Shown: piece after piece, positions 937-33,700 of the stretch
Numbering within the stretch: the stretch's first letter is position 1
Layout: each line of letters opens with the position of its first letter
From: an uncultured Oscillospiraceae bacterium
GTDB lineage: Bacteria > Bacillota > Clostridia > Oscillospirales > Oscillospiraceae
Length of the DNA stretch: 33,820 nucleotides
Assembly (NCBI GenBank): GCA_947624035.1
Contig: CANQIH010000004.1
Span: 1-33,820 of the forward strand
Direction: 5' to 3'
Position numbers and translations under genes: made by a program
The notes under the pieces: model-generated
The model's database searches: none
The model's input: only the letters and a program-made list of their open reading frames with translations
What the model was told of the DNA's origin: nothing

Positions 937-1383
937 TCACGCCACGCGGGTAAACGCAATGGCCGCATTGGTTACGTTTATACCCTGAGTGATTGCCTCC
1001 ACGGTGACGGTAGCACAGCACCCGCGCGGAACGTCTACGTAAGCGAATGTAGACACGTGATTAATATCCGTCACAACAGCGGCGGGGGTCACAGTGGCGA
1101 TAGAGCTTGCCAGAGGTTCACCGTTTAGCGCAATAGCCACGGTCGCGCCGGTAGCCGGAGTGCCGCCGTCAGCGACAGCAAGGTTGCCCTGGAACTGCAC
1201 CAAATAGCGTGCAAAGCACTGGTTACAAGCGCAACCGGGGCCACGCAAAGTAAACAGGCCGCTGTCCTGACGGTGAATCACAAGGCCCTTATTGCAAGGT
1301 ATCGGGCTTTCGGTAAAAATCACGTTCTGCCCTGCGATGACGGCTTGCTGTGCGATTGAAGTGTAATATGCCGTAAAAATCAT
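937..1383 (-). CDS. Phage structural-type protein (MIFTAYYTSIA...FTRVA)
   Basis: ORF 937..1527; start placed at internal ATG 1383, preceded by GAAAGGA. Confidence 0.65.
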   Translation of the reverse strand: MIFTAYYTSIAQQAVIAGQNVIFTESPIPCNKGLVIHRQDSGLFTLRGPGCACNQCFARYLVQFQGNLAVADGGTPATGATVAIALNGEPLASSIATVTPAAVVTDINHVSTFAYVDVPRGCCATVTVEAITQGINVTNAAIAFTRVA

Positions 1384-1484
1384 TCCTTTCGTAAAAGATA
1401 GCGGCGAGGGCATACACCCCCGCCGCTTGTGTACAGTATCGGCATAAACCGACCATTTTGCCGACGAAGGCAAAAAGCTGTTTA

Positions 1485-2117
1485 TTATTCGGATTTCGGA
1501 TTTTTCCAAGCTGGTGTTGTAAGGCAATCTTCAACACTCCACCCTTTTAAAATCCTCATCCTAATTGTGTTTTTGTGTAATCCCGTTTTTCTTGCCCACT
1601 GTGAATAGGTCAACCTTTTTCCGTCAAACTCAATATATTTGTTCGTATATCTATTATTTGCCTGCTGGATAGCAGTCGCCCACCGGCAATTTTCTGGGCA
1701 ATAATCTCCATCGTTGTCTATCCTATCAATGGTCAAATCATCTGCATACCCGTGAGACACGGACCATTTAACAAACTCTGAAAAATCTTCCCATTCCTTA
1801 CAGACTGTTATTCCCCTTCCTCCGTACAATTTGTAACCATTGGCGCATGGGTCTGAACATCTTTTTTTCATTCCCTGCCATATATGATTTAGACGCTTGT
1901 AGGATTCTCGGGACAATCCGCTTGTTTTTCTGGCCTCTGTTCTAATATAATGCATACAACCACATGATTTTATGGTACCGTTTTTAAGATGGTGTGCATA
2001 ATGGATGGATTGATTTCCGCAATCACATTGGCACAGCCACTTTCCGCCTCCAATATACTTTATCGGAGTAAGCATTCCGTATTTTCCCCCGGTAATATCA
2101 GTATGTTTCCGTGGCAT
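1485..2117 (-). CDS. HNH/AP2-type homing-endonuclease-like protein
   Basis: CxCDCG...SCGC zinc-knuckle-like N-terminus, YGGRGITVCKEW, IDRIDNDGDYCPENCRWAT core, C-terminal DNA-binding-like GWSVEDCLTTP. Paralog of 3544..4398. Confidence 0.85.
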   Translation of the reverse strand: MPRKHTDITGGKYGMLTPIKYIGGGKWLCQCDCGNQSIHYAHHLKNGTIKSCGCMHYIRTEARKTSGLSRESYKRLNHIWQGMKKRCSDPCANGYKLYGGRGITVCKEWEDFSEFVKWSVSHGYADDLTIDRIDNDGDYCPENCRWATAIQQANNRYTNKYIEFDGKRLTYSQWARKTGLHKNTIRMRILKGWSVEDCLTTPAWKNPKSE

Positions 2118-2383: not shown

Positions 2384-3078
2384 TTAGGCGGCGTAACCGT
2401 TGCAACCGCAGCCGCAACCGCTGTTGTTCAGACCAATCCCGTAAGAGGACTGGAAGGGAGAACAAGTGATATAGGCGGGCTGGGGGCAAGGCCGCAGGGT
2501 GTTCACCAGATAGTTGTTCTGGGCCTGCTGGCTAGCGGCCAGATCGGCGCGGAACAGCTGCTGATTGAGTGCGGTGATCTGCGCGTCCTTCGCAGCGATC
2601 TCCTGCTGGGTCAGCTTGTCCAGCACAGCGCGGGCATTGTCGTTCTGGTTGGTGATGATGTCCCGCGTCATGGTCTGCATGGCATACCGGGTGTCGCAAG
2701 CCTGAGCACTGATGTTGCTGTTGATGCCCGCAAGGGTCTGCTGAGCATCGCAGCAGCAACCGGCAATCTGGGTAGCCAGCGCGTTCTGGCCCTGCAACGT
2801 GGCAATGGTCTGCGCGTTGAAGCCCTGCTGGACAGTGGTACCGAGAGCGTTGATTTTGCCAGCGGTGTCATACTGCTGGTTGCAGATAGTGGAGTTGAGG
2901 TTGGCAAAGCCCAGGTTGACGGCATCGTTGGCGTTCTGGATTTCGCGCTTGACATCCTGGAAGGACATATCCTGGCACAGCTCGCCGCGAGTGAGGGCCT
3001 GACCGCCGCCGCCGTTACCGCCGAAACCGCCGCCAAAACCGCCCCACCCCCAAGCGAAGATGAAGAAGAGGATTATCC
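2384..3078 (-). CDS. Phage Gly-rich/hydrophobic protein, exon 2 of intron-split gene
   Basis: Reads (W)IILFFIFAWGWGGFGGGFGGNGGGGQALTRGELCQDMSFQDVKREIQ...CGCNGYAA*. In frame with exon 1 after removal of 3079..3320. Confidence 0.85.
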
Positions 3079-3320
3079 CGTGTTGTTATCGTAAAGGCTT
3101 TTTATCCTATACTTCTATTGCTTTCTATTCGCAATAGTCCGGCATACCTTTTCAACTCATAGAGTTGTCGCGGTCTCGTGGACGGATTATATCTTTTCAC
3201 CGTCTATGCTCTGCCCCTGACTATACTTTGCATAGCCTTCGGTTCTGATTCCCATTTCAGGGTTCCAGCTTAATACCGCGATTTTTCAATGTGCGTCACC
3301 GCACAAAGTGGCAGATTTCT
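3079..3320 (-). ncRNA. Group I self-splicing intron (~242 nt, no internal ORF)
   Basis: 5' exon ends in U (3321), intron ends in G (3079). P1 UGGU|AG-AAAU-CUGCCA has a U-G wobble at the splice site; P3 TCGCGGT (3281-3275)/ACCGCGA (3174-3168); P7 GCATA (3209-3205)/TATGC (3146-3142); P8 AACTC/GAGTT (3166-3154); P9 CTATTGC/GCAATAG (3137-3115). Splicing restores one 265-codon ORF. Confidence 0.88.
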
Positions 3321-3423
3321 ACCAGGCACCATCGCCGCCCCACATGCCAGAATTGTTGTTACCACAATTCCCGGTGCATGCGGCAATATCAGCGGGCGTC
3401 ATAGAATCTACGGTTAGAGACAT
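3321..3423 (-). CDS. Phage Gly-rich/hydrophobic protein, exon 1 of intron-split gene
   Basis: MSLTVDSMTPADIAACTGNCGNNNSGMWGGDGAW + T; unspliced reading hits a stop (TAG) immediately. Confidence 0.85.
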
Positions 3424-3543: not shown

Positions 3544-4398
3544 ATGCAATCGTATTCAATGAGGAAAATAGAAGATTATATCGGTAAGCGTTACGGGCAT
3601 TTGACCGTTATAGGTGAAGCGCCGAAAACACACAAATACTCAAACTCTTTTCTGTTCCAGTGCGATTGCGGGAATGTGATTGCGGAACAGCCTACAAGGG
3701 TTATGTCCGGGCATAAATCAAGTTGCGGAAAATGTGAGTATGCCGGGAAAACTGGAATACCAACATTTAACCCGGATGATTACATAGGGCGAAAGAATAA
3801 TATGTTGACCGTGATAGGCGTAGCTGACAAAAAGCCAACCGAAAAACGATGGAAACTAAAATGCCTTTGCGATTGCGGAAACTACACAGAAATATATCCA
3901 GACCAATTCAACCGGGGCGCTGTGAAGTCTTGTGGGTGTTTGCGCCGCCGTGGTACACGCACAGTAGACAGCCGCTCAAAACATCCTCTTTATGGGATAT
4001 GGAACCAGATGATGGGCCGTTGCTACCGCAAGTCAGATAAGCATTACCACTTGTACGGCGGGCGTGGTATCAAGGTGTGTGAAGAATGGCACGATTTTTG
4101 GAACTTTGCGAAATGGTCTGATTCTATCGGTGGCAGGCCGGACAATGAAGAAATTGACCGCATAGACAATGACGGCGACTATTGCCCGGAGAATTGCCGC
4201 TGGGCCACGCGAAAGCAACAAAACTCTAATAAGTCAAATAACATCGTCATTGAGTACAACGGAAAGAAACAGACCCTTGCTGAATGGTCGGAAGAAACGG
4301 GTATAAGATGGGGAGTGCTAAACCATCGGTATCACCGTGGGTGGAGCGCAGAAAGAATGTTGACAACGCCCGTACAGATACACAAAAAGCACGACTAG
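3544..4398 (+). CDS. HNH/AP2-type homing-endonuclease-like protein with duplicated zinc-knuckle-like N-terminal module
   Basis: Two YGHLTVIG/NNMLTVIG...CDCGN...CG-C modules, then YGGRGIKVCEEW, IDRIDNDGDYCPENCRWAT. RBS GGAGG upstream. Confidence 0.85.
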   Translation: MQSYSMRKIEDYIGKRYGHLTVIGEAPKTHKYSNSFLFQCDCGNVIAEQPTRVMSGHKSSCGKCEYAGKTGIPTFNPDDYIGRKNNMLTVIGVADKKPTEKRWKLKCLCDCGNYTEIYPDQFNRGAVKSCGCLRRRGTRTVDSRSKHPLYGIWNQMMGRCYRKSDKHYHLYGGRGIKVCEEWHDFWNFAKWSDSIGGRPDNEEIDRIDNDGDYCPENCRWATRKQQNSNKSNNIVIEYNGKKQTLAEWSEETGIRWGVLNHRYHRGWSAERMLTTPVQIHKKHD

Positions 4399-4508
4399 TC
4401 TAACCGCTGGGCGGTTTCTTCTTCGTCGGTCCAGTCTTTACCGAACAAAGCGCAAAAGAGCATTAGTATAATCCATGCGCCGTCATCGTTCCAAATATCT
4501 TCTGTCAT
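4395..4508 (-). CDS. Small phage membrane protein (37 aa)
   Basis: MTEDIWNDDGAWIILMLFCALFGKDWTDEEETAQRLD*; ATGA overlap with the upstream gene. Confidence 0.6.
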   Translation of the reverse strand: MTEDIWNDDGAWIILMLFCALFGKDWTDEEETAQRLD

Positions 4509-17102: not shown

Positions 17103-20100
17103 TCAGGGCTGGATGATCGCCGGTTCGCCCTCCACGGTGTACCTGTCGGTGCCGTCGCCCCGCTCCGATATGATGAGCTCGCCGCTGTTCTGGATGGGCT
17201 GGGATATGTCGATATGGCCGCTTATCTCCATCCTGCTCCGGTTGACGATGGTCCCCTCGGAGGCGGTGCTGGCCGTGCCCCAGCCGCCGAACCACATGTG
17301 GCCGCCGTTGTCCAGCACGGTGTCCCCGTCCATGTACAGGTCCACCGCCTCGAACACCACCTCGCACTCCTCCTCCGTGGTGACGGTGCAGCCTCGCAGG
17401 GTGACGCCCGGGCTGGTGATCCGCACGCTGCCGTATCTCTCCGTCACGTCGATGGCGCAGCCGGTCAGCTCCGTGGGCCCGATGAGGTAGATCTCGCTGT
17501 TTTCCACCGTGAGGGCCATGTCCTCCGCGGCGAAAGCCAGGGTGCCGGGCAGCATGAAAAAGGCGTCCGCCGCCATGACGGCGGTCCCGTCCATATCAAG
17601 GCTCTCCAGCCGCTCCGGCACGAAGCTGGCGTATTCCATGGTCAGCCGGGCCCCGGACAGGTCAAGGCTCCTGCCCTCGCCGGTGAGGATGGCGTTGTCC
17701 GCCATATAGAGCTCGCCCCCGGCCGGCACTGTGAGAGACGACCCCTCCGTCATGAGAAGGCCCGCGCCGTGCAGCAGCCGCAGCTCCGCCGCCTCCAGGG
17801 ACCCCTCCCCGTACAGCACCAGCGCCGTGCCGCTGACGGTGATGGCCGCATCGGGCCCCGCCGTCACCGAGCCGCCGATGTAGAGGGGCTGCCCGATCTC
17901 GACAGGCCCCATGATAACGAGGTCCCCCGGGACGAATACAGCCTCGTCCCCCTCCAGGGCGGCGCGCAGCTCCTCCTCGGTCTGGACGGTGACAGTCCGC
18001 TCCGGCAGCCGTTCCGGCAGGGGCAGCGCCTGGCCGCAGAACCGCCAGTCGATGTTCTCCCCGCTCTCCGCGCTGATGACGCCGGGCCCGAACACCCGGC
18101 CATGCCAGACCGAGGCCCCGTCCTCCGCTGCCACCTCGCCGTGGCGGTTATAGACCGCGCCCAGATAGCTCTCCGCGCCATCGTCCAGCTGAAAGCAGCC
18201 GTCGTTGACCAGCCAGCCGTCGCTGCTGTAGTAGGCGCCGCCGCACACGGTGAAGGTGCCGCTGTTGTAGATGCTGGTGCCGTTGAGCGTGGAGAGGCAG
18301 GACTTCTGCTCGTCCCCCTCCTGGGGGGTGGGCAGGTCCATATCGCCCAGGTTCGAGATGCGGCCGCCTGTAGCGCTCATGTCGACCGTGGCAAGGCGCC
18401 CCAGATTCGTCAGCTGGGCGCCGGTCTCCAGCTCGCAGCCGCCCGCCGTGACCAGCTCGCCATAGTTGAGCAGGGTGCAGCCGCGCCCAAACTCCATGGT
18501 CAGGGCCCGGCCCTGGTCGGTGCAGCCGTCAAATCCGCCATAGTTGAGGACGGCGCTGTCCTCCGCCCGGATGCCGCAGAGAAGCTGGCCGCTGTTCACC
18601 AGTACGCTGTCACGGAGCTGCAGGCCCGCCTCGGTGTTTTCCGGCCACAGCACGCCGTCCTCGCCGATGAACAACGTCTTGCCGGAGATGTCGTACCATT
18701 GGGAGAGTGCGATGCTGCCCCGGATCATCAGCGTGTCGTGGAGCCGCAGCCCCTCGTTCAGGGTCCGCAGGTCCGTGACCTCGTAGGCCAGTTCCGCCTC
18801 CGGGCGGATCACCAGACGGCTGCCCAGGGTCTGGGCCAGCCTCTCGTCGTCGACCAGAAGGTTGGCCCGCTCATCCATGAGGAACACCGCCGTCTCCTCC
18901 CCCGCCGGGGACAGGCGGCCCTCCAGACGGAGCCGTTCACCGCTGCCCTCCAGGGTGACGAGGCCCCGGCAGTCCAGCGTCCCCTCCATCAGCAGGGTAC
19001 CGCCCTCCGGCACGGTGAGCAGGTTGGCGCAGAGCGTGGCGCCCTCCTCCACCAGCAGGGGCTTTTCCAGCACGGTGGTGTCGTTGTCCAGGGTGTTCAG
19101 GTCCAGGGTGGCGCCGCTGCGCAGGATGACGGACGGCACGGTCTCGTCATCCATGAGCTTCATGAGCTCGTCCCGGCTGTAGATGTCGTCCGCAAGCTCC
19201 GTGCCGCCCTCGAAGAGCCTGGACAGGCTCCGGTCCCCCCGGGCCGTCCCGGACCGGGGCCCCAGGGACAGGGCCACCGCGGCGGCCAGGCAGGCAGCGG
19301 CGGCGACGCCCAGGCCGCCCAGGACCCAGGCCCGGCGGCGGGACCAGCGTCCTGACCGGACCGGCGGCATATCCGGCCCGGTCTCCCACGGGGCCTCCTC
19401 CGCCATAGGCCCCTCCTTGTACAGGGCCCGCCGGAAGTCCTCCATGGACTGGAACCGGCGGCGGGTCTGGATGCGCAGGGCCTTGAGCAGCGCCAGCTCC
19501 TGCCGCTTGGTCAGCGGCGCGCCCAGCTTCGTGGGCAGCAGCAGTGTGTCCTCCGGCACCCGGTCCAGGGGCTGGGGCGGGGCCTTGCCGGTGAGCCCGA
19601 AGTAGATGGTGGCGCCCAAGGCGTACACGTCCGTCCAGGGCCCCTGGCCCTTCTGGCGGTACTGCTCGATGGGCGCGTAGCCGTGCTTGATGGCGATGGT
19701 CAAGGTCTCCTGGCCCTGGTCCGCCTCCCGGGCGCAGCCGAAGTCCAGAAGACGCATGGCCCCGTTTTCCAGCATCAGGTTGTCCGGGGAGATGTCCCGG
19801 TGGATGAGGCCGCTCTCGTGGAGCCCGCTCAGCGCCCGGAACACAGGCTCCATCAGGGGCAGCAGCTTCTCCGGCGCCATGGGGCCGTCCCGCTCCACGA
19901 TCTGCTTGAGGGTGACGCCCTCCACGTACTCCATGACGATGTAGGCGGTGTTGTTGGCCTCGAAGTGGTCCAGCACGCCCACGATGGCCGGCTGCTTCTC
20001 CAGCCGGGCCATGATCCGGGCCTCGTCCAGAAACCGCTGGCGGCCCCGCTCGAAGGTCTCCTTCGCGAGGCCGGTAAGGCTCACCAGGGACAGGGACGCG

Positions 20101-20363
20101 GCGCTGTTGCGGGTAGCCCTGTCCAGGGGGTAGTACTCCTTCACCGCGGCCTTCCGGGCCAGGCGGCGGTCGTAGGCCACATAGGTGATGCCAAAGCCGC
20201 CCTCGCCGATGACCCCGCCGACGGTGTACCGGCCCGCCAGGACCGTCCCCGGGGGCAGGTGGTGGGGCGACGGGACATAGGCCGCCGCCGGCTTTCCGCA
20301 GCGGGGGCACACCTCCGCCCCCTCCAGCGCCGTCATGCACCAGGGGCAGTATTCCATCTCCAT
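17103..20363 (-). CDS. Receptor-like Ser/Thr protein kinase 1 (zinc ribbon, kinase, TM, beta-solenoid-like ectodomain)
   Basis: CPWCMTALEGAEVCPRCG; GEGGFGITYVAYD, AVKEYYP, HRDISPDNLM, DFGCARE; RRRAWVLGGLGVAAAACLAAAVALSL TM; repetitive LVNSGQL/LNYGEL/LTNLGRL ectodomain. Confidence 0.93.
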   Translation of the reverse strand: MEMEYCPWCMTALEGAEVCPRCGKPAAAYVPSPHHLPPGTVLAGRYTVGGVIGEGGFGITYVAYDRRLARKAAVKEYYPLDRATRNSAASLSLVSLTGLAKETFERGRQRFLDEARIMARLEKQPAIVGVLDHFEANNTAYIVMEYVEGVTLKQIVERDGPMAPEKLLPLMEPVFRALSGLHESGLIHRDISPDNLMLENGAMRLLDFGCAREADQGQETLTIAIKHGYAPIEQYRQKGQGPWTDVYALGATIYFGLTGKAPPQPLDRVPEDTLLLPTKLGAPLTKRQELALLKALRIQTRRRFQSMEDFRRALYKEGPMAEEAPWETGPDMPPVRSGRWSRRRAWVLGGLGVAAAACLAAAVALSLGPRSGTARGDRSLSRLFEGGTELADDIYSRDELMKLMDDETVPSVILRSGATLDLNTLDNDTTVLEKPLLVEEGATLCANLLTVPEGGTLLMEGTLDCRGLVTLEGSGERLRLEGRLSPAGEETAVFLMDERANLLVDDERLAQTLGSRLVIRPEAELAYEVTDLRTLNEGLRLHDTLMIRGSIALSQWYDISGKTLFIGEDGVLWPENTEAGLQLRDSVLVNSGQLLCGIRAEDSAVLNYGGFDGCTDQGRALTMEFGRGCTLLNYGELVTAGGCELETGAQLTNLGRLATVDMSATGGRISNLGDMDLPTPQEGDEQKSCLSTLNGTSIYNSGTFTVCGGAYYSSDGWLVNDGCFQLDDGAESYLGAVYNRHGEVAAEDGASVWHGRVFGPGVISAESGENIDWRFCGQALPLPERLPERTVTVQTEEELRAALEGDEAVFVPGDLVIMGPVEIGQPLYIGGSVTAGPDAAITVSGTALVLYGEGSLEAAELRLLHGAGLLMTEGSSLTVPAGGELYMADNAILTGEGRSLDLSGARLTMEYASFVPERLESLDMDGTAVMAADAFFMLPGTLAFAAEDMALTVENSEIYLIGPTELTGCAIDVTERYGSVRITSPGVTLRGCTVTTEEECEVVFEAVDLYMDGDTVLDNGGHMWFGGWGTASTASEGTIVNRSRMEISGHIDISQPIQNSGELIISERGDGTDRYTVEGEPAIIQP

Positions 20364-20396
20364 CGCCTCACCTCCTCACCTTCTCAGTTATACTTT

Positions 20397-20425
20397 ATTA
20401 TACCGTCTGTTGGCGTTTTTCTCAA
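20397..20425 (-). promoter_or_regulatory. Sigma-A-type promoter for kinase 1
   Basis: Minus strand TTGAGA-N17-TATAAT, starting 1 nt after the kinase 2 stop codon. Confidence 0.7.
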
Positions 20426-20426
20426 C

Positions 20427-23400
20427 TCACTCGTCGTATATGGCGTGTTCTCCGACGACCTCCACGAGCTGCCCATCCCCGTGATAGTGCAGCTCGCCCC
20501 GGTTGAGGACCGGCAGTTTGACGTCCGTCTCCTCCGCCTCGGTCCAGTCCATATACCCCGCGTTGGTGATGTGGCTCTGGCGGTCCATGGTGATGGTGCG
20601 CTCCAGCCAGCCGTCGATACTGGCGTACCCGGCGTTATAGAGGGCGCTCCCGGCCAGCTCCAGTCTGGCGGGCCGGAGGACGATCGTACACCCCTCCGAG
20701 GCCGAGGAGATCTGGCTGTCCTGGAAGACGGCGCTCCGCCCCGCGACCTCCAGGATGCTCTCCTGATCCGGGCCGCTGACCGTGAGGTCGATGTCGGCCC
20801 CGTTCAGCCGGACCTCCCCCAGCAGGCGGACGGTGCTGTCCTCCGCCGAGATGGTCATGTCCCTGGCGGAGAACGCCTCGGACATGGGCGTCATGAACAG
20901 GGAGCGGGAGGCCGCCGTGACCTGGGCACTGTTCATGGCCAGGCTGTCCGCCCGCATGGGGATGAAGCAGGCGCGGTCACGGAGGGACACCTGGGCCCCT
21001 GTGAGGTCGATGCTGCCGCCGGCGGCGAACAGCGCGGAGGACTCCGCCTCCAGCGTCTCCGTCACCTTCAGGCTGCCGCCGCCGCTGACGCTGAGCTTGG
21101 CGAACCACCCGGTGCCGCTGTCCGCCTCCAGGCGGAGGTCGTCCGTCACCAGGCTGCCGCCCCCGCAGATGTACACCTGGCCGCCGGACACGGTGACCGA
21201 CGGCGCCGTGACCTTCCCGCAGATGTACAGCGTACCGGCCACCACCAGCCGCTGATTGAGCTCGATGTCCCGGACGACACGCCCCTTCTCGCCGGCGGCG
21301 GCGGAGGCCCAGAGGGCGTCCGCGCTCTCCACCACGGTGCAGTCAGCGGGTATGAGTCCCGCCTGGCTGTCCGTCTGGAAGGAGGCAAGGCTGTCCGTGG
21401 CCAGCCGGGCCGTGCCCGGGCCGTAGACCACCCCGGCGGGCCAGCTCTCCCCGCCCACGGTCACGGAGCCGTTCATGTTGTAGATGCTGCCCGCGCCATA
21501 GCCCAGGCCGTCCTGGATGTCGATGGTGCCGCCGTCGTTCACGGTCCAGCCGTACAGGTCCAGCTCCGAGCCCCGCTCACAGACTATCGTTCCGCTGTTG
21601 TAGAGGACGGAGTCCCACTCCGTGCCGAGGAGGGCCGCGTGGTCCATACCGCTGGCCTCCGACATCTCCGGCAGCAGGAGCCGGCCCAGATTCACCATAT
21701 CGGCGCCCACCATGTACATATCCCGCGCCGTGACCGTCCCGGTGTTCAGCAGCAGGCCGTCGTCCCATATCCGGGCGAAGAGGTCCTGCTCCAGGTCGCC
21801 GAAGTTCAGCAGCAGGACGCCGCCCTCCAGATAGTATCCCTCCGTATGGCTGTCGAAGGGCTCGATGGAGCCGTAATTATAGATGACCGTGTCGTCGTCG
21901 GCCCAGATCGCCGCCCGGATCGTCCCGCAGTTCACCAGGGTGCAGTGTCCGTCGCCGTAGCTTTCAAAGCACAGCGTGGACTCTCCTCCCGAATCACGGC
22001 CGCGTACGCGCACCGTCACGCCCTCGCTGACCCACACGTACGCACAGTCGAAGGTATAGTCTGCAGGCAGGCTGATGCTCTGGTCGATGGAGATCGGCTT
22101 GCCGGAGGCCACGGCGGCGGCCAGGTCCTCCACCGCGGTGACGGAGACGGCGTTTTCCGGCTTCCGGGGCGTGATCTGCACATGGGTGCCCATGCGCCCC
22201 AGAAGGCCGCTGTCCGCCAGGGCCAGGTTCTGCCCGTCGTCCATGAGGATGACGGCGCAGTCCTGCCCCTCGCCGGTGAGGCCGCCGGTCTCATTCACAT
22301 ATAGCCGCGTGCCGCTGCCCTCCAGGGTGATGAGGCCCCGGCAGTCCAGTGTGCCGTCCACCTGCAGGGCGGAGCCGTCGGGCACGCGCAGGTGGTTGGC
22401 CCGCAGCGCGGCGCCCTCCCTCACCAGCAGGGGCTTTGGGAGGACGTACTCGCCGCTGCCGCCCGCGTTCAGGTCCAGCACCGCGCCCGCCTCCAGGGCC
22501 ACGGCCTTGACGCCGTCGCTCTCCATGAGGCTCTCCAGGTCGTCCCGGCCGTAGACGCCGGCGGCGATGGTCTGGGCGTTATCGAAAGTGTTCTCTTTCA
22601 GGGCCTTGCCGCTGCCCGGGTCGTGGACGGCGGAGTCCGGATGGCTGTCGCGCCAGGACAAAAAGCCCAGCACGCCCGCCACAAGCGCCACGGCGGCCAG
22701 GCTCAGGACGGCCCAGAGGCCGGTGCGGCGGCCGGATCGCTTCTGCTGCTGCTTTTGCTGCTTCTCCTGCTGCTTCTGCTGCCGGGCCTCCTGCTCCTGG
22801 CGTTTTTTCTCCTCGGCGGCCCGGCGGCGCTCCTCCTCCAGCCGCTTTTTCTCCCGGGCCTGCTCCTCCCGGCGGCGAAGCTCCTCCTTCTCCTCCGGGA
22901 ACAGGCCGTCGTACAGCGCGTCGTGCAGGTCCTCCATGGACTGGAGCCGCCCCTGGGGCGCGGCGTTCATGCCCCGCAGCAGCGCCTTTTCCTCCGTCTC
23001 CGTCAGCGCCGCCCCCAGCTTGATGGGCAGCATCAGCGTGTCCTCCACCAGCCGGTCCGGGGCCCGGGGCGGCACCACGCCGGTGAGGCAGTAGTATATC
23101 GTCGCGCTCAGGGCGTACACGTCCGTCCAGGGGCCCTGGCCCTTCTGGCCGTACTGCTCCATGGGGGCATAGCCGTGCTTGAGGGTCACGGTCTGGGTCT
23201 CGCTGCCCTCCGCCTCCCGGGCGCAGCCGAAGTCCAGCAGCCGGGCGCGGCCGTCCTCCACCATGATGTTGTCCGGGGAGATGTCCCGGTGGATGAGCCC
23301 GGTCTTATGGAGCGTGGCCAGCGCCCCGAATATGGGCTCGATGAGCGGCAGCAGCTCCCCCGGCGGGATGTGGCCCCGCCGCTCGGTCATGGTCTTGAGG

Positions 23401-23873
23401 GTCACCCCGTCCACATATTCCATGACGATGTAGGCGGTGTTGTTGGCCTCAAAAAAGTCCTGTACGGTGACGATGGCCGGCTGCTTCACCATCCGGGCCA
23501 TGATCTGGGCCTCCTTGAGGAACCGCTGCTTGCCCTTCTCATAGCTCTTGGCCTGTGGCCCGATGGGGCTCGTGACCACCACCGATACGGTGGCGTCCCG
23601 GCTCACCTTGTCCCGGGGGTAGTACTCCTTCACGGCCACCCGGGTCTCCAGACGCCGGTCCAGGCCTATGTAGGTGATGCCGAAGCCCCCCTCGCCCAGG
23701 ACCCCGCCGACGGCATACCGGTCCGCCAGTACCGTGCCCGGCTGCAGATGGTGGGGCTGGGGCATATAGTCCGCCAGTGCCCTGCCGCACTTGGGACACG
23801 TGTGCCCCTCCCCCGCCGGGGCCATGCAATACGGGCAGTATTTCTTATCCAACGTCTCCGCCTCCCCCGTCAT
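20427..23873 (-). CDS. Receptor-like Ser/Thr protein kinase 2 (charged/Gln-rich juxtamembrane coiled coil)
   Basis: CPYCMAPAGEGHTCPKCG; full kinase motifs; EELRRREEQAREKKRLEEERRRAAEEKKRQEQEARQQKQQEKQQKQQQKR then TM; beta-solenoid-like ectodomain. Confidence 0.93.
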   Translation of the reverse strand: MTGEAETLDKKYCPYCMAPAGEGHTCPKCGRALADYMPQPHHLQPGTVLADRYAVGGVLGEGGFGITYIGLDRRLETRVAVKEYYPRDKVSRDATVSVVVTSPIGPQAKSYEKGKQRFLKEAQIMARMVKQPAIVTVQDFFEANNTAYIVMEYVDGVTLKTMTERRGHIPPGELLPLIEPIFGALATLHKTGLIHRDISPDNIMVEDGRARLLDFGCAREAEGSETQTVTLKHGYAPMEQYGQKGQGPWTDVYALSATIYYCLTGVVPPRAPDRLVEDTLMLPIKLGAALTETEEKALLRGMNAAPQGRLQSMEDLHDALYDGLFPEEKEELRRREEQAREKKRLEEERRRAAEEKKRQEQEARQQKQQEKQQKQQQKRSGRRTGLWAVLSLAAVALVAGVLGFLSWRDSHPDSAVHDPGSGKALKENTFDNAQTIAAGVYGRDDLESLMESDGVKAVALEAGAVLDLNAGGSGEYVLPKPLLVREGAALRANHLRVPDGSALQVDGTLDCRGLITLEGSGTRLYVNETGGLTGEGQDCAVILMDDGQNLALADSGLLGRMGTHVQITPRKPENAVSVTAVEDLAAAVASGKPISIDQSISLPADYTFDCAYVWVSEGVTVRVRGRDSGGESTLCFESYGDGHCTLVNCGTIRAAIWADDDTVIYNYGSIEPFDSHTEGYYLEGGVLLLNFGDLEQDLFARIWDDGLLLNTGTVTARDMYMVGADMVNLGRLLLPEMSEASGMDHAALLGTEWDSVLYNSGTIVCERGSELDLYGWTVNDGGTIDIQDGLGYGAGSIYNMNGSVTVGGESWPAGVVYGPGTARLATDSLASFQTDSQAGLIPADCTVVESADALWASAAAGEKGRVVRDIELNQRLVVAGTLYICGKVTAPSVTVSGGQVYICGGGSLVTDDLRLEADSGTGWFAKLSVSGGGSLKVTETLEAESSALFAAGGSIDLTGAQVSLRDRACFIPMRADSLAMNSAQVTAASRSLFMTPMSEAFSARDMTISAEDSTVRLLGEVRLNGADIDLTVSGPDQESILEVAGRSAVFQDSQISSASEGCTIVLRPARLELAGSALYNAGYASIDGWLERTITMDRQSHITNAGYMDWTEAEETDVKLPVLNRGELHYHGDGQLVEVVGEHAIYDE

Positions 23874-26800
23874 ACCTTGGGTTCGATATATCCGTAGTTC
23901 TCCACCGGCTGATGCAGATCTCTCTCGCCGAAGAGATACATCTCGCCGTGATTCGTGATCCGGGCGCTGTCGCCGGTGGTCAGGCTGCTCTCCTGCCGCC
24001 AGCCGCCAAAGCTCGTAAAGCCGTAGTTCACAAGCTGGGTCTCACCGCGCAGGAAGGTATCGGCATGATCAAAGCTCAGCGTGCAGCTGCCTACGTCCGT
24101 TCCCTCCGCGCCCACTGTGATGCCGCTGCTCCCCTCAAAGACGTTCGTCTTCCCGAGGCACAGAAGGCGGCTGTCCCCGTAATAGCCTGTATAGCGCACC
24201 GAGACGGACCCGTCCGTCAGCGAAACACCGCCAGGCAGACTCGCATGGCTGTCCTCCACCGTGAGGGCGAGCCCCGCCGCCGTGAGGGGCGTCCCGCTCG
24301 GCATGCAGAGCCAGGAGGCGGAATACACGCCCACGCTGGCGCCGTCCAGGCCGGTCACCTCCGCCCCCGCAGGGAGGAAGCACCCGCCGTTTCGCAGGAG
24401 CACGGCCGCGCCGCTCAGCGCCAGCGTGCCGCCCTCGCCGTAGAGGATCGACCCGCTCACGGTCAGGGAGCCTGTCACCTTCAGCGAGGCGTTCCGGGCA
24501 AGGAACAGCTCCGCGCCGCCGCCAAGGCTCAGTTCCTCCGTCTCCAGGCTCCCGCCCTCGCACAGGACGAGCATGGAGCCGCTCACGGCGGCCGAGGGCG
24601 CCTTGATGGACCCAGCCACGTACAGCGGCGCCGTCACCGCCAGGGGCTCCGTGAGCTCCACGTCCCCCGTCAGGAGCACCGGGCCGCCGGCCGCCAGGGC
24701 GGAGAGCAGCGTCTGTCCGTCCGCCGCCGGGGCCGCGCCGGCCTTCGCGGCGTCGGTCTCCCCGGTCCGGCGGACATGCCCGTCCTGCTCCTGGGCCGCT
24801 GCCTCCACGGCGCCCGGGCCGTATATGAGCTCGGGCAGCCAGGCGGTCTCCGCCGCCGTGACCGTCCCGCCGCGCAGGTTGTACACCGCGCCGTCGAGAC
24901 CGCCGCTGATATCCACCTGGCCGCCGTCGTTCCACAGCCAGCCGGACACGATCGCCGTCGCGCCCTCGTCCACGGTCATCCGGCCGCTGTTGTACATCGC
25001 GGCGCCGTTGGCCACCGTCAGGCCATCGCCATTGGTATCCACGGAAACAGTCAGCTGTCCCAGATTCACGAAGCCAGCGCCCATCTGCTCGAAGTCATAG
25101 GCGCAAAACTGCCCCGCGTTGACCAGCAGCGCCTCGCCGCTCATGCGGGAGCGCAGGGTGGCGTCGATCTCGCCAAAGTTCAGCACCAGCGCCCGGCCAT
25201 CCAGGGCCATGCCCGTGCCGTTGCCCATGTTTTCGTTATAGACGCCGTAGTTATAGACGGCCGCGCCGCCCTTGATGCCGCCCTGGATGGTCCCCTCGTT
25301 CACCAGCACGGACCCCTCGTCCAGGCACAGAGTCCCCATGCGGTCATTCCACCTGTTCACGACGTCGGTACGGCGCACCGTCACGCCCACGCTGACCCAG
25401 ACGGTCTTGCCGCGGCCCCAGAGCTCCTCGCCGTAGATATCGATGCTCTTGTCGATGGAGACCGCCGTCACCGTCTCGTCCGCAAAGGCGGCCTGGAGCT
25501 CCTTGAAGCTGGTGACGGACGTCATATCCGCCGGCCGCCGGGGCACGATCTGTATATGGCCGCCCAGGCGCTCCGTCAGGGCCCCGTCTGCCACGGACAG
25601 GGCCGTCCACTCGTCCATAAGGAACACGGCGCAGCGCTCCGCCTGCTCCGTGAGCGCGCCGGTCTGGCCGATGCTGAGCCTGGTGGTCCCACCCTCCAGG
25701 GTGATGAGGCCCCGGCAGTCCAGGGTACCGTCCACCTGCAGGGCGGCGCCGTTGGGGATGCGCAGCCAGTTGGCCCGGAGGGTGGCCCCCTCCTTCACCA
25801 GCAGGGGCTTCGCGAGGCGGTACTCGCCCTCTCCGCCCCCGTTCAGGTCCAGCGTGGCCCCCGCCTCCAGGGCGATGGCCCCGACGGACCCGTCGCGCAT
25901 GAAGCCCGCCACGTCTCCGGCGTCGTAATAGCCCGCCGGGAGGGTCTTGACATTCTTATGCGCGCTCAGGTCCAGCGGCTGGCCGCTGCCCGGGGCCGGT
26001 GTGGGCTTGGGCGTGGGCTCTGCCGTGGGCGCCGGGGTGGGCTCCGCCGTGGGCACAGGTGCGGGCGAGGCGGCCGGCTCTCCGCCGCCGCGGCTGAACC
26101 AAAGGACCGCCGCGGCGATGGCCGCCAGCGCCAGGACCACGGCCACGATGGCGCCCGTCTTTTTCCGGGGCCTCGGCTGGGGCTTTGGCGCGGGTACGAT
26201 AGGCTCCGGCTCATGTATAGGCTCAGGTATCACGGGCTCCGGCCCGGGGCCCTGATCGGGCTTCGGTCCCGGCTCCAGCGGGAAAACGCCGTTATAGAGC
26301 GCGTCATAAAGCTCCCTCACGGACTGGAACCGGCCCTGTGGCATCACATTCATGCCCCGCAGCAGCGCCCTTTCCTCCGTCTCCGTCAGCGCCGCCCCCA
26401 GCTTGATGGGCAGCAGCAGCGTGTCCCCCATCACCCGGTCCGGGGCCCGGGGCGGCACCACGCCCGTGAGGCAGTAATATATCGTCGCGCTCAGGGCGTA
26501 TACGTCCGTCCAGGGGCCCTGGCCGCCCTGGCTGTACTGCTCCATAGGCGCGAAGCCGTGCTTGAGTGTCACGGTCAGCGTCTCGCTGCCCTCCGCCTCC
26601 CGGGCGCAGCCGAAGTCCAGCAGCCGGGCGCGGCCGTCCTCCACCATGATGTTGTCCGGGGAGATGTCCCGGTGGATGAGCCCGGTCTTATGGAGCGTGG
26701 CCAGCGCCCCGAATATGGGCTCGATGAGCGGCAGCAGCTCCCCCGGCGGGATGTGGCCCCGCCGCTCGGTCATGGTCTTGAGGGTCACCCCGTCCACATA

Positions 26801-27250
26801 TTCCATGACGATGTAGGCGGTGTTGTTGGCCTCAAAAAAGTCCTGTACGGTGACGATGGCCGGCTGCTTCACCATCCGGGCCATGATCTGGGCCTCCCGG
26901 AGGAACCGCTGCCTGCCCTTCTCATAGCTCTTGCCCTGAAGTCCGATGGGGCACGTGATGGCCGCGGAGGCGGTGGCGTCCCGGCTCACCTTGTCCCGGG
27001 GGTAGTATTCCTTCACGGCCACCCGGGTCTCCAGACGCCGGTCCAGGCCTATGTAGGTGATGCCGAAGCCCCCTTCGCCCAGGACCCCGCCGACGGCGTA
27101 CCGGTCCATGAGCACCGTGCCCGGCTGCAGATGGTGGGGCTGGGGCACGTAGTCCGCCAGCGCCTTTCCGCACCTGGGGCACGTGTCATCCTCCCCCGCC
27201 GGGGCCATGCAATACGGGCAGTATCTCTTATCCAACGCCTCCGCCTCCAT
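23870..27250 (-). CDS. Receptor-like Ser/Thr protein kinase 3 (Pro/Thr stalk)
   Basis: CPYCMAPAGEDDTCPRCG; kinase motifs; TM; PTAEPTPAPTAEPTPKPTPAPG stalk; ectodomain. 4-bp overlap with kinase 2. Confidence 0.93.
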   Translation of the reverse strand: MEAEALDKRYCPYCMAPAGEDDTCPRCGKALADYVPQPHHLQPGTVLMDRYAVGGVLGEGGFGITYIGLDRRLETRVAVKEYYPRDKVSRDATASAAITCPIGLQGKSYEKGRQRFLREAQIMARMVKQPAIVTVQDFFEANNTAYIVMEYVDGVTLKTMTERRGHIPPGELLPLIEPIFGALATLHKTGLIHRDISPDNIMVEDGRARLLDFGCAREAEGSETLTVTLKHGFAPMEQYSQGGQGPWTDVYALSATIYYCLTGVVPPRAPDRVMGDTLLLPIKLGAALTETEERALLRGMNVMPQGRFQSVRELYDALYNGVFPLEPGPKPDQGPGPEPVIPEPIHEPEPIVPAPKPQPRPRKKTGAIVAVVLALAAIAAAVLWFSRGGGEPAASPAPVPTAEPTPAPTAEPTPKPTPAPGSGQPLDLSAHKNVKTLPAGYYDAGDVAGFMRDGSVGAIALEAGATLDLNGGGEGEYRLAKPLLVKEGATLRANWLRIPNGAALQVDGTLDCRGLITLEGGTTRLSIGQTGALTEQAERCAVFLMDEWTALSVADGALTERLGGHIQIVPRRPADMTSVTSFKELQAAFADETVTAVSIDKSIDIYGEELWGRGKTVWVSVGVTVRRTDVVNRWNDRMGTLCLDEGSVLVNEGTIQGGIKGGAAVYNYGVYNENMGNGTGMALDGRALVLNFGEIDATLRSRMSGEALLVNAGQFCAYDFEQMGAGFVNLGQLTVSVDTNGDGLTVANGAAMYNSGRMTVDEGATAIVSGWLWNDGGQVDISGGLDGAVYNLRGGTVTAAETAWLPELIYGPGAVEAAAQEQDGHVRRTGETDAAKAGAAPAADGQTLLSALAAGGPVLLTGDVELTEPLAVTAPLYVAGSIKAPSAAVSGSMLVLCEGGSLETEELSLGGGAELFLARNASLKVTGSLTVSGSILYGEGGTLALSGAAVLLRNGGCFLPAGAEVTGLDGASVGVYSASWLCMPSGTPLTAAGLALTVEDSHASLPGGVSLTDGSVSVRYTGYYGDSRLLCLGKTNVFEGSSGITVGAEGTDVGSCTLSFDHADTFLRGETQLVNYGFTSFGGWRQESSLTTGDSARITNHGEMYLFGERDLHQPVENYGYIEPKV

Positions 27251-27253
27251 TCA

Positions 27254-30200
27254 TCAGAACTCCCTGTACTCCGCCGGTATGCCCTTGACCACGCTTGGAT
27301 CAAAGTCGGGATAGTTGTAGAAAAAGCTGCCCCGGTTGTCCACGGGCTGGACCAGGTCCGCCTCCATGGAGAAGAAGATGGTCCCGTTGTTGACGAAGGA
27401 CGCCTCAGCGTCTCCCGTCATATGATAAGCCCCCCAGCCGTCAAAGTTCATCTGGCCGTTGTTCACGATCTGGGTGTTCCCATTCAGCTCCACGTCCGCA
27501 AACTGCGACCACAGGCCGCAGTTGGTCCCCTCCAGGGTGATGGCGCAGCTGTCGAAGGCCAACCGGTCCCCGGTGAACACCAGGCCGGCGCTGTCCTCCC
27601 AGGTGCTCCGGTCCGTGATGGAGGAGCCGGCCAGCTCCACGGGGCCAAAGGCCCAGAATTCTCCGTCCTCCACAGTCATCACAAGGCCGCTGGCGGAGAA
27701 GGTCATATCCCCGGGTGTTGTAAAGATAGAGCCAGTCGCCAGCCTCAGCCGGGTCCTGTCCATGGACAGCCCCTCCAGCTTTCGGAGCGCGAAGGCGCTG
27801 TCGTACGCAATATCGAGGATGGCTCCCGACAGGTCCACGGCGCCGCCGCCGGCGTAGAGGGCCGCGCCGGTCATCCCCATGGAGCCGGTCACGGTCAGGC
27901 CGGCGCCCTTCGTCAGGATCAGCCAGGCCGTCTCCGCCATATCGCCCGTGTCGTTCACGGCGGCCAGGGCCTCCGCCTCCAGGCTGCCGCCCTCGCACAG
28001 GGTCAGCTGCGTGCGGTACACCGTGAGGGCGGACGCCTTCAGCCGCCCGGCCACGTACACCGGCGCCGTCAGCGTCAGGGGCTCGGACACGGTCAGATCG
28101 TCCCGGAGCAGCACCGTCATCCCTGCCTGCTCGGCCTGCCGCAGGGAGGCCTCGTCGTGGACCTCCACGGCGTTCGCCGGCACAGAGCCATCGGTCAGGT
28201 TCGGGTAGAAGGACATATTTACATCCTCCCTGCCCTTCTCCGCCGTGCCGGGGCCGCAGATCAGTCCGGAGCTGCCGCCCTCCACATAGCAGCGGCCGCT
28301 GAAGTCGTTGTAGACGCTGCCGCGCAGGAAGCCGCCGTCCTTCACATCCACCGTGCCCCGGTTGACCATCCAGCCATGTACAGTCACGCTGCTGGTATCC
28401 TCCACCGTAAAGGTGCCGCTGTTATAGATCCCGGCGCCGTGGAAGGTCTCGAGCCGGTGCCAGCCGGCGAGTCCGCCCACGGTCACCTGGCCCAGGTTCA
28501 CCATATCCGCGTCCGTCAGAAAGCAGTCTGCGAGGCCGATCTCGCCTGCGTTGAGCAGGAAGCTGTTCTCACTGAGGTCAAAGGACCGTTGGTACCTGAT
28601 CTGGCCAAAGTTCAGCACCAGCGACATGCCCACGCCCCAGGATACGCTCTCGCTGGCCGGATCGCTCATAACGCCGTAGTTGTAGATCGCAGACCTTCCC
28701 TCTATACAGATGCAGCTGTTGACGGTCCCCTCGTTCACCAGGACCGCCCCAGGGAGATTCGGGTGTTCAAATAAGGTGTCCGGGTCGATCATGTTGATAT
28801 ATCCGCCGCCCTCATTTTCGGAGGTAACGTTGAGCGTCACGCCTTCGCTGACCCACACCGTCTTTCCGGAGCTGATGGCCAGCCCTTCTGTGGCGGTGAT
28901 ATCCCCGTCCACGGAGATGGCGGTCACCTTCTCGTCCTCCAGCGCCTCAAGGAGCTGGTCCAGGGTGGTGACGGACAGGATGTCCTCCGGCCGCCGGGGC
29001 ATGATCTGCATATGGCCGCCCAGGTGCCGGCGGAGGTTCGTGTCCGCCACGGACATGGCCTCGCCGGAGTCCATGAGGAACACCGCGCAGCGCTCCGACT
29101 CCTCGGGAAGGCCGCCGGTCTTGCTTATGCTGAGCTTCGTCTCCTCGCCCTCCAGGGTCACCAGGCCCTGGCAGTCCAGCTGCCCGTCCACCTGCAGGGC
29201 GCCGTCCCCGGATATGCGCAGCCAGCTGGCCCGGAGCGCGGCCCCCTCCCCCACCAGCAAGGGCTTTGTGAGGGTGTACTCGCCCTCTCCGTTCAGGTCC
29301 AGCACAGCCCCGTCCGCCAGGGCGACGACCCCAACGGAATCGTCGTTCATCAAGTCCTCCACGTCCGCGGCGGTGTAGCTGCCCGCCGGGAGGGTGTGGA
29401 TATCCTCATAGGCGCCCAGGTCCAGGGGCTGGCCCCGTCCAGGGGCCGGGGTGGGCGGCGGCGTGGGTTCCGGCGTGGGCTCCGGGGTGGGCGTGGGCTC
29501 CGCCGTAGGCTCCGGGGTGGGCGTGGGTCTGAGAGATGCCAGCCCCCCGCGGCTGAACCAGAACACCGCTGCCGCGATGACCGCCAGCGCCAGGACCGCC
29601 GCCACGACGGCGCCCGTCTTCTTCCGGGGCTTGGGCTCCGGCTTTGGCATGGGCTTGGGCTCCGGCTCGGATACTATAGGCTCCGGCTCGGGTATAGGCT
29701 TTGGTATTATGGGCTCCGGTCCAGGCTCCGGCTTGGGTACCGGCTCTTTTGGGACCTTCTTCGCCGGGAACACGCCGTTGTAGAGGGCGTCATAGAGCTC
29801 TCTCACGGACTGGAACCGGCCCCGGGGCAGCACGCTCATGCCCCGCAGCAGCGCCTTTTCCTCCGTCTCCGTGATGGCCGCCCCCAGCTTGATGGGCAGC
29901 ATCAGCGTGTCCTCCACCGCCCGGTCCGACGCCCGGGGCGGCACCACGCCGGTGAGGCAATAGTATATCGTCGCGCTCAGGGCGTACACGTCCGTCCAGG
30001 GCCCTTGCCCGCCCCGGCCGTACTGCTCTATGGGCGCGAAGCCCTGCTTGAGGGTCACGGTGAGGGTCTCGCTGCCCTCCGCCTCCCGGGCGCAGCCGAA
30101 GTCCAGAAGCCGGATGTGCCCGTGCTCCACCATGATGTTGTCCGGGGAGATGTCCCGGTGGATGAGCCCGGCCTCATGGAGCGTGGCCAGCGCGCCGAAC

Positions 30201-30739
30201 AGCGGCTCGACCATGGGCAGCAGCTCTCCGGGCGGGATGTGGCCCCGCTGCTCCGTCATCTCCTTGAGGGTCACCCCGTCCACGTACTCCATGACGATGT
30301 AGGCGGTGTTGTTGGCCTCAAAGAAGTCCCGGACCGTGACGATGGCGGGCTGCTTCACCATTTTGGCCATGACCTTGGCCTCCCGGAGGAAGCGCTGCTT
30401 GCCCTTCTCGTAGCTCTGGGCCTGGGGCCCGATGGGCCCCGTGACCGCCACGGAGGCGGTGGCGTCCCGGCTCGCCTTGTCCCGGGGATAGTATTCCTTG
30501 ATGGCCACCCGCATCTCCAGCCGCCGGTCCAGGCCTATGTAGGTGATGCCGAAGCCGCCCTCGCCCAGGACCCCGCCAATGACATACCGGTCCCGGAGCA
30601 CCGTGCCCGGCTGGAGATGGGACGGCTGGGGCTCATACCCCGCCGCCGTCTTCCCGCACTTGGGGCATACGCCGTCCTCCCCCACCGGGGCCATGCACCA
30701 GGGACAATACCTCTTTTCCAACGCCTTTGCCTCCCTCAT
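27254..30739 (-). CDS. Receptor-like Ser/Thr protein kinase 4 (Pro/Thr stalk)
   Basis: ORF 27254..30838; start set at ATG 30739 (MREAKALEKRYCPWCMAPVGEDGVCPKCG). Full kinase motifs, TM, stalk, ectodomain. Confidence 0.93.
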   Translation of the reverse strand: MREAKALEKRYCPWCMAPVGEDGVCPKCGKTAAGYEPQPSHLQPGTVLRDRYVIGGVLGEGGFGITYIGLDRRLEMRVAIKEYYPRDKASRDATASVAVTGPIGPQAQSYEKGKQRFLREAKVMAKMVKQPAIVTVRDFFEANNTAYIVMEYVDGVTLKEMTEQRGHIPPGELLPMVEPLFGALATLHEAGLIHRDISPDNIMVEHGHIRLLDFGCAREAEGSETLTVTLKQGFAPIEQYGRGGQGPWTDVYALSATIYYCLTGVVPPRASDRAVEDTLMLPIKLGAAITETEEKALLRGMSVLPRGRFQSVRELYDALYNGVFPAKKVPKEPVPKPEPGPEPIIPKPIPEPEPIVSEPEPKPMPKPEPKPRKKTGAVVAAVLALAVIAAAVFWFSRGGLASLRPTPTPEPTAEPTPTPEPTPEPTPPPTPAPGRGQPLDLGAYEDIHTLPAGSYTAADVEDLMNDDSVGVVALADGAVLDLNGEGEYTLTKPLLVGEGAALRASWLRISGDGALQVDGQLDCQGLVTLEGEETKLSISKTGGLPEESERCAVFLMDSGEAMSVADTNLRRHLGGHMQIMPRRPEDILSVTTLDQLLEALEDEKVTAISVDGDITATEGLAISSGKTVWVSEGVTLNVTSENEGGGYINMIDPDTLFEHPNLPGAVLVNEGTVNSCICIEGRSAIYNYGVMSDPASESVSWGVGMSLVLNFGQIRYQRSFDLSENSFLLNAGEIGLADCFLTDADMVNLGQVTVGGLAGWHRLETFHGAGIYNSGTFTVEDTSSVTVHGWMVNRGTVDVKDGGFLRGSVYNDFSGRCYVEGGSSGLICGPGTAEKGREDVNMSFYPNLTDGSVPANAVEVHDEASLRQAEQAGMTVLLRDDLTVSEPLTLTAPVYVAGRLKASALTVYRTQLTLCEGGSLEAEALAAVNDTGDMAETAWLILTKGAGLTVTGSMGMTGAALYAGGGAVDLSGAILDIAYDSAFALRKLEGLSMDRTRLRLATGSIFTTPGDMTFSASGLVMTVEDGEFWAFGPVELAGSSITDRSTWEDSAGLVFTGDRLAFDSCAITLEGTNCGLWSQFADVELNGNTQIVNNGQMNFDGWGAYHMTGDAEASFVNNGTIFFSMEADLVQPVDNRGSFFYNYPDFDPSVVKGIPAEYREF

Positions 30740-30749
30740 GTTTTTTTGA

Positions 30750-33700
30750 TCAGCCGCCGTCGTATACCGGCGCCGCGCCCTCGACCTTGCCGGCGTCGAA
30801 GCCGAGTCTGTCGTAGTAGAACTGGCCTCGGTTGTCAATGGCCCGGGACAGCTCCGCCGGCATATAGAGCCTGAACTCCCCGTTGTTGACGATGGACGTC
30901 TCCGCGCCCGTCTTCAACAGAAAGTCGTCCCAGCCGTTAAAGCTCATCGAACCGCTGTTCACGATCCGGGTGCTGCCCTTCAGCTCCACGTCCGTAAAGT
31001 CCGTTACAAAGGAGCAGCCGGGCCCCTCCAGGGTGATGGCGCAGCTGTCGAAGACCGCCCGGCCTCCGGCGAACATCTGCGTGGTGTACCACTCCTCTGT
31101 GACCCGGGCCGTGATGGAGGAGCCTGTCAGCTCCACAGGGCCGAAGGCCGTGAACTCCCCGCCCTCCGCCGTCACCACAAGGCCGCTGGCGGAGAGGGTC
31201 ATATTCCCGGGCGTTATAAAGCCGGAGGCCTCGTTCAGTGTCAGCTGGGTCCTGTCCATGGACAGCTTATCCAGCCGCCGGGGCGCGAAGATGCTGCCGC
31301 CCGCCGCGGTGAGGCTGGCCCCGGACAGGTCCACCGTGCCGCCGTCGGCGTAGAGGAACGCGCCGTTCATCCCCATGGAGCCGGTCACCTTCAGGCTGGC
31401 GCCCTCCGTCAGGCGCAGCCAGGGCGTCCGCGCTATATCGCCCGTGTCGTTGACGATGGTCAGGTCCTCCGCCTCCAGGCTGCCGCCCGCGCAGACCGTC
31501 ACCGGCGCATGGTACGACGTGAGGGCGGATGCCTTCAGCCGTCCGGCCACGTACAGCGGCGCCGTCAGCTCCAGGGGCTCGGACACGGTCAGATCGTCCC
31601 GGAGCAGCACTGTCATCCCGGCGCTCTGGGCCTGCCGCAGAGCGGTCTCGTCGTGGACCTCCACGGCGCTCACAGGTACAGTTCCGGCCGTCAGGTTCGG
31701 GAAGAAGGGCGAGTGTATCACGCCCTCCGGCCCGGGCATCTCCACCGCGCCGGGGCCGCAGACGATGCCGGAGCTCCCGCGGCCGAACATGGCCTCTTCT
31801 TCGCCCCGGACGGTGCCGTTCACGTCGTTATAGACGCAGCCGAACAGGTGGCCGCCGGCCTTCACGTCCACCGTGCCCCGGTTGACCAGCCAGCCGAAGA
31901 GATCCACACAGCCATTGTGTTCCACCGTGAACGTGCCTCTGTTATAGATGACGCCGCCGCCGTAGCTGCCGCATTCGGTCCCCCACTCGCAGGAAGACTC
32001 GCTGGCGGTCAGCTGACCCAGGTTCGCCATATCCGTGCCCATCATATAGAAGTGGAGGGCGTTGAACTGGCCCACGTTGACCAGGAAGCTGTCATCCCAG
32101 AACCGGGAGCACCAGTCGGCCTTGATCTGGCCAAAGTTCAGCATCAGCGTCCGGCCCTCGTACCAGGCCCCGCCATAGGATTTGGTCTCGTCTATGACGC
32201 CGTAGTTGTAGATCACGGCGCTGTCCGTGCCATTGAGGGAGCCAATGACCGTTCCCTCGTTCACCAGGATCGGGTAGTCGCTGAGAGGGCCGCCCAAGCC
32301 GAGCGCGTGGCCGATGGCGCCGGTGCACGTCACCGTCACACCCTCGCTGACCCACACCGTCTTTCCCGCATCGATACCCATCTCATCGCCGGAGATGGTG
32401 ATATCCCCGTCCACGGAGATGGCGGTCACGCTCTCGTCCCGCAGCGCACTGCGGAGCTCCTCCCGGGTGGTGACAGACAGGATGTCCTCCGGCCGCTGGG
32501 GCACGATCTGCATCTGCACGCAGCTGTCCAGGCGCGTGCGGAGATCCCTGTCCGCCACGGCCATGGCAGCGCCCGAGTCCATGAGAAACACCGCGTGCTC
32601 CTCCGACTCCTCCGTGAGGCCGCCGGTCTTGCTTATGCTGAGCCTTGTGTCCTCACCCTCCAGGGTCACCAGGCCCTGGCAGTCCAGCTCTCCGTCCAGC
32701 TGCAGGGCGCCGTCCCCGGATATGCGCAGCCAGCTGGCCCGGAGGGTGGCCCCCTCCCGCACCAGCAGGGGTTTTGTGAGGGTGTACTCGCCCTCTCCGT
32801 TCAGGTCCAGCACAGCCCCGTCCGCCAGGGCGATGACCCCAACGGAATCGTCGTTCATCAAGTCCTCCACGTCCGCGGCGGCGTAGCTGCCCGCCGGGAG
32901 CGTTTTGGCGTCCTCATAGGCGCCCAGGTCCAGGGGCGCGCCGCTGCCCGGGGCCGGGGTGGGCGACGGGGTGGGCTCCGGCGTGGGCCGGGGCGTGGGG
33001 GTGGGCTCCGCCGTGGGCGCCGGGGTGGGCGTGGGCTTGAGAGAGGCCAGCCCCCCACGGCTGAACCAGAACACAGCCGCCAGCGCCAGGACCACGGCCA
33101 CGACGGCCCCCGTCTTTTTCCGGGGCTTGGGCGCGGGTCTCGTCTCCGGCTTGGGCTCCGGCTTTGGCGTGGGCTCATTCTCCGGCGTGACCGTCTGCGT
33201 GTGCTCCAGGACGGCCGCAGGCTCCGGGCCGGGGACCGGTCCGGGGGCAGGCGCCTCCAGGATCTTCTCCAGGGGGAACACGCCGTTATAGAGGGCGTCA
33301 TATAGCTCCTTCACAGTCTGGAACCGGCCCTGGGGCAGCACGCTCATGCCTGTCAGCAGCGCCTTCTGCTCCGTCTCCGTGATGGCCGCTCCCAGCTTGA
33401 TGGGCAGCATCAGCGTGTCGCCCACCATCCGGTCCGACGCCCGGGGCGGCACCACGCCCGTGAGGCAATAATAGATGGTGGCGCTCAGGGCGTACACGTC
33501 CGTCCAGGGCCCTTGCCCGCCCTGACCGTACTGCTCCATGGGGGCGAAGCCCTGCTTGAGCGTCACGGTGAGGGTCTCGCTGCCCTCCGCCTCCCGGGCG
33601 CAGCCGAAGTCCAGAAGCCGGATGTGCCCGTCCTCCACCATGATGTTGTCCGGGGAGATGTCCCGGTGGATGAGCCCCGTCTCATGGAGCGTGGCCAGCG

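Follow-up and report, generated by a model that had tools for sequence, protein, structure and literature searches.

A putative ORF-less group I intron at a Trp-Trp codon pair of a prophage gene from an uncultured Oscillospiraceae bacterium, with same-site relatives in other phages

The window, i.e. the whole stretch of 33,820 nucleotides that was analysed, contains a conserved prophage module that comprises the ORFs at 160, 487 and 937, the host gene of the insert discussed here, and the ORFs at 4505, 4716 and 5386. The module is uninterrupted in G095 (a genome of the same genus), in G370 and in the viral contig L285, and it carries three insertions in the window. Two of them are free-standing HNH endonuclease genes of the PHROG 374 family, namely H1 (1485..2117, minus strand), downstream of the host gene, and H2 (3544..4398, plus strand), upstream of it and divergent; both are possible partners in trans of the third insertion, a putative ORF-less group I intron of 242 nt (3079..3320, minus strand), with A as its first and G as its last nucleotide. 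Pfam yielded no credible domain in the H1 and H2 proteins. The start called for the ORF at 937-1527 (minus strand), which overlaps the end of H1, is probably too early, and PHROG 20016 fits its residues 54-196 only.

Exon 1 of the host gene (3321..3423, minus strand) is preceded by AAAGGAG, starts with the ATG at 3423 and runs for 34 codons to GCC TGG T at 3321. The next two nucleotides are AG, generating TGG TAG, so that the unspliced frame ends immediately after exon 1. Exon 2 (2384..3078, minus strand) begins with GG ATA ATC and is open to 2384. Removal of 3079..3320 yields a protein of 265 residues, which begins with MSLTVDSMTPADIAACTGNCGNNNSGMWGGDGAWWIILFF and of which residues 8-264 match PHROG 16490 (E 3.6e-39), the point of interruption being the W|W codons of the GDGAWWII stretch of this prophage gene. 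Re-reading of the sequence bore out the exon coordinates and the restored frame of the first-pass annotation, as well as its remark that the ORF track misses exon 1 and misplaces the start at 2968: the mechanical ORF list contains exon 2 only, as 2384-2968. The same annotation spoke of a phage structural-type gene; the gene is indeed a prophage gene, but 'structural-type' was a guess from gene context, and Pfam found no credible domain in exon 2. As judged from the sequence, the insert disrupts a gene model, and the predicted correction consists of the two exons joined across 3079..3320.

All the structural elements assigned to the intron lie on the minus strand. The internal guide sequence GCCA (3309..3312) forms P1 with the UGGU that ends exon 1, with a U.G pair at the 5' splice site, and the adjoining P10 strand AUCU (3313..3316), made up of the bases just 5' of the guide, pairs with the GGAU that starts exon 2. 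P2 is the hairpin UGUGCG-GUGA-CGCACA (3290..3305), for which a same-site intron of another phage (G401) has the compensatory version UAUACG-GUGA-CGUAUA. Comparative alignment places P3 at 3168..3281 (UCGCGGU at 3275-3281 with ACCGCGA at 3168-3174), P4 (3265-3268/3245-3248) and P5 (3260-3262/3251-3253) at 3245..3268, P6 (CC/GG) and the P6a hairpin (3219-3237) at 3216..3242, and the P9 and P9.1 hairpins at 3115..3137 and 3091..3112, respectively. P7 (3141..3211) joins G(A)GCAUA at 3205-3211 to UAUGCC at 3141-3146, and includes the bulged A and the G-C pair of the guanosine-binding site, while P8 (3153..3167), CAACUC-UAU-GAGUUG, is closed by six pairs. Thus, the P3-P7-P8 catalytic core and the P4-P6 domain are present, along with the P7 bulge and guanosine-binding pair, the intron-final G and a P10 that aligns the 3' exon, as is characteristic of group I introns. 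Between P7 and P3' the hairpin GACGG...CCGUC (3181..3204) provides the extra pairing P7.1, as in subgroup IA. In the window P7.1 is one hairpin only, while two other introns of the class, L325 (G402) and L326 (G403), have an inner hairpin CUC...GAG added in the P7.1 loop. The 242-nt intron has no endonuclease ORF, which homing introns carry. Folding of the insert with short flanks gave a z-score of −4.1 against shuffled sequences, with none of the 200 shuffles as good.

The structure, the splice sites, the empty sites and the same-site relatives described here were all established by comparison of sequences. Members of the intron class were gathered in IMG/VR by using two short DNA patterns from conserved stretches, and each pattern matched at least 120 stretches, so that the class is a common one. 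The group I structure of the window intron was mapped onto an alignment of 18 diverse members, in which standard pairs fill 96.8% of the 968 base-pair cells (54 pairs) and changes on both sides occur at 33 of the 54. The covariation score is 0.522 as opposed to 0.177 for shuffles, none of 500 of which equalled it, and to at most 0.093 for slid controls, in which no more than 42% of cells are paired. The count includes P7, which crosses P3; of the 18 sequences, six close this helix with G-C and 12 with A-U. Since the members were picked by patterns lying in P7.1 and P9.1, the loop invariance of these two elements is partly selected, as are the few pairs that the patterns fix, but no such selection affects the covariation of the remaining helices. 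The comparison bears out the group I identity, both splice sites, the P1 U.G pair, P7, P8 and P9 that had been proposed from the window sequence, as well as the reading of the GACGG/CCGTC hairpin as a P7.1 of the subgroup IA type; of the proposed seven pairs of P3, six are general in the class and the seventh forms in only five of the 18 sequences.

A covariance model (R2) was built from 14 introns, the window excluded, with a structure derived anew by RNAalifold. It recovers the window intron with 216.6 bits (E 2.8e-66), a score close to that of the top-scoring relative not used in building it, and the single match to model R1 in the window, and in its genome, is this same intron. R2 also detects introns that the patterns did not pick, namely that of the Lactobacillus phage JCL1032 terL gene and those in MT835539, G354, G066, G402 and G403. 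The JCL1032 intron (EU409559) belongs by R2 to the same class, with 113 bits, approximately half of the window value, and has a P7.1. Like the window intron, it interrupts a conserved motif of a phage gene, although both gene and site differ: it lies at the Walker-A site, splitting GRKNG|KTT, and the deposited coding sequence is already joined from two pieces. Searches with R2 did not find the td and nrdB introns of phage T4. The latter, of subgroup IA, resemble the window intron in being group I introns of a phage with an extra pairing between P7 and P3, but, as R2 misses both, the class constitutes a separate phage intron lineage. Furthermore, td carries a GIY-YIG gene, whereas the window intron is without an ORF.

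Rfam was silent on this class. RF00028 gave no match in the window either at the gathering score or at E values up to 10, and none of the 18 sibling loci is reported at gathering. The first-pass annotation had suggested an Rfam Intron_gpI search as a check; such a search was run and found no match, but its outcome is not valid as a refutation. With the same model, the proven T4 introns nrdB and td score 35.7 and 32.5 bits, below the cut-off of 50, and therefore the silence of Rfam is not evidence against the intron, even if the T4 introns do reach E 10 and the window does not. The gathering score is a criterion of the database rather than a defining property of group I introns, and the Rfam group I model has been termed incomplete in a published survey (PMC11878797). 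A class of phage group I introns that Rfam leaves unreported implies that split phage genes are missed by standard annotation.

Intronless alleles of the host gene were also found. Among 401 genomes from the bacterium's own family, 13 encode homologues of the joined protein, the window's own included, and all the homologues in these genomes that span the site, with the exception of the window, are uninterrupted. The same-genus genome G095 has GGTGCCTGGTGGAT without interruption across the site, and its GGTGACGGTGCCTGGTGGATTATT corresponds in the window to GGCGATGGTGCCTGGT, the intron and GGATAATC. A pattern for uninterrupted GGDGAWWI codons retrieved 31 viral contigs, all with true homologues. 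The comparison with intronless homologues that the first-pass annotation had called for thus supports it, with the 31 viral contigs and the prophages of the family and genus uninterrupted, and contradicts its refuting case, in which homologues would code for protein through the insert: they are either intronless or have an intron with an immediate stop.

A pattern for GGDGAW followed by an immediate stop matched ten viral contigs. In four of them this gene is interrupted at the identical nucleotide by an intron that belongs to the class; the other six are chance matches. The carriers are L021 (the L007 phage, G404), L202 (G401), L273 (G402) and L276 (G403), and the introns measure 236 nt in G404, 754 nt in G401, 797 nt in G402 and 777 nt in G403. 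They share with the window intron the gene family, the nucleotide, the class and the fit of P1 and P10 to the exons. In all five same-site introns the final U of exon 1 is paired to a guide G, P1 has 4-6 bp with the U.G pair, and P10 has 4-8 bp; a change of the third base of exon 2 from A to U is matched by a change of its intron partner from U to A, a compensatory replacement of A-U by U-A in an exon-intron pair. The three long introns differ from that of the window in their gene content. In G401 the P8 loop, flanked by CAACTGG and CCAGTTG, encodes a protein of 171 residues with HNH_3 and NUMOD4 domains, and relatives of it are encoded in P8 in G402 and G403; no HNH gene is present in the introns of the window (242 nt) and the L007 phage (236 nt). 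A tree of the intron cores gave three label changes, with weak support, and is compatible with either a single or a multiple origin of the same-site introns. The L007 phage has a second intron of the class elsewhere in its genome (G404:C1:91631-91850, 216 bits). In GTDB genomes the exact-site pattern had 65 matches, none of which was recognised as a true intron allele. A DNA search of the 401 family genomes found two short partial matches only. That in G354 is a related intron (L002/L267) with its own HNH gene, splitting another gene, possibly that of a capsid protein; that in G158 has no intron core nearby and is probably a chance match.

From these data, the insert is almost certainly an ORF-less group I intron of a phage family that recurs at this codon pair, and its splicing would restore the host gene. 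Group I introns are spliced by guanosine-initiated transesterification. Once the late genes of the prophage have been transcribed, the intron RNA would fold into its P3-P9 core, the UGGU that ends exon 1 would be aligned on the guide GCCA, and two guanosine-initiated transesterifications would excise the intron. In the PHROG 16490 protein W34 would thereby be joined to W35, with the frame of 265 residues restored, while translation of an unspliced message would stop at the UAG formed across the 5' splice site. Those members whose P8 loop carries an HNH gene would spread into intronless alleles by endonuclease-driven homing, and the window copy appears to represent the endonuclease-free stage of such a site-specific intron. 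From the comparison we infer that the intron is spliced in the cell and that its family homes, and that the endonuclease gene may have been lost rather than absent from the outset. The window intron is best taken as an ordinary ORF-less group I intron, probably active, that has the P7.1 of subgroup IA; its site-specific relatives probably home by means of the P8-borne HNH enzyme, and the window copy is probably immobile on its own. As the relatives share the exact site, some of them with the endonuclease that would spread them, the intron is real, though of a well-known kind, of which the window copy is a further case. Empty, ORF-less and endonuclease-bearing alleles at one recurrent phage site form a small natural series of the homing cycle.

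The two flanking HNH genes raise the alternative of collaborative homing in trans, in which one of them cuts intronless GDGAWW alleles, so that the ORF-less intron would still be mobile and would shield its own genome. We consider it unlikely. A PHROG 374 HNH gene stands on each side of the host gene, both inserted in the conserved gene order, the same HNH family is encoded within other introns of the class, and there is a precedent on record in F-CphI and the psbA intron of cyanophage S-PM2 (PMC6083498; PMC3984707), which resembles the window in the adjacency of intron and free-standing endonuclease gene. However, the window enzymes are HNH proteins of PHROG 374 rather than of the Endo VII type, and the parts are dissociable: an H2-like gene occupies the H2 position of G356 next to an allele that lacks the intron, and in the L007 phage the intron occurs with neither H1 nor H2, so that the three insertions are separable. 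Moreover, the intron-borne enzyme of G401-G403 belongs to another HNH family, with no similarity detected between it and H1 or H2. A role in trans of H1 or H2 is thus possible but not indicated, and it is quite improbable that the intron and one flanking PHROG 374 gene form a trans-homing pair at GDGAWW while a different HNH enzyme acts inside the introns of its relatives; if true, two endonuclease families would converge on one insertion site. The H2-like gene of G356 lies at the H2 position in both prophage copies (L261, 5246-5961; L262, 3407-4123), split over two frames in one copy and open in the other.

It is very improbable that the insert is a degenerate intron, once mobile and self-splicing but now defective in splicing, with the host gene a truncated pseudogene. 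The absence of an endonuclease gene is as expected late in the homing cycle, but the core helices and invariant core bases are all intact, R2 scores the intron much as it does the best left-out relative, P1 and P10 match the present exon letters, and both exons are open, with a joined protein that aligns with its family over almost its whole length. That the insert reflects an indel, an assembly error or the division of one gene into two separate proteins has hardly any probability, in spite of an incomplete assembly of 239 contigs, given the covarying RNA structure common to many phages, the four same-site relatives from other assemblies and an exon 1 that on its own has 34 codons. An ORF-less intron at this codon pair remains by far the preferred reading. 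Elsewhere in the window, the region 17103-33800 (minus strand) is occupied by long paralogous genes in tandem, the N-terminal parts of which resemble serine/threonine kinases and are followed by long C-terminal parts.
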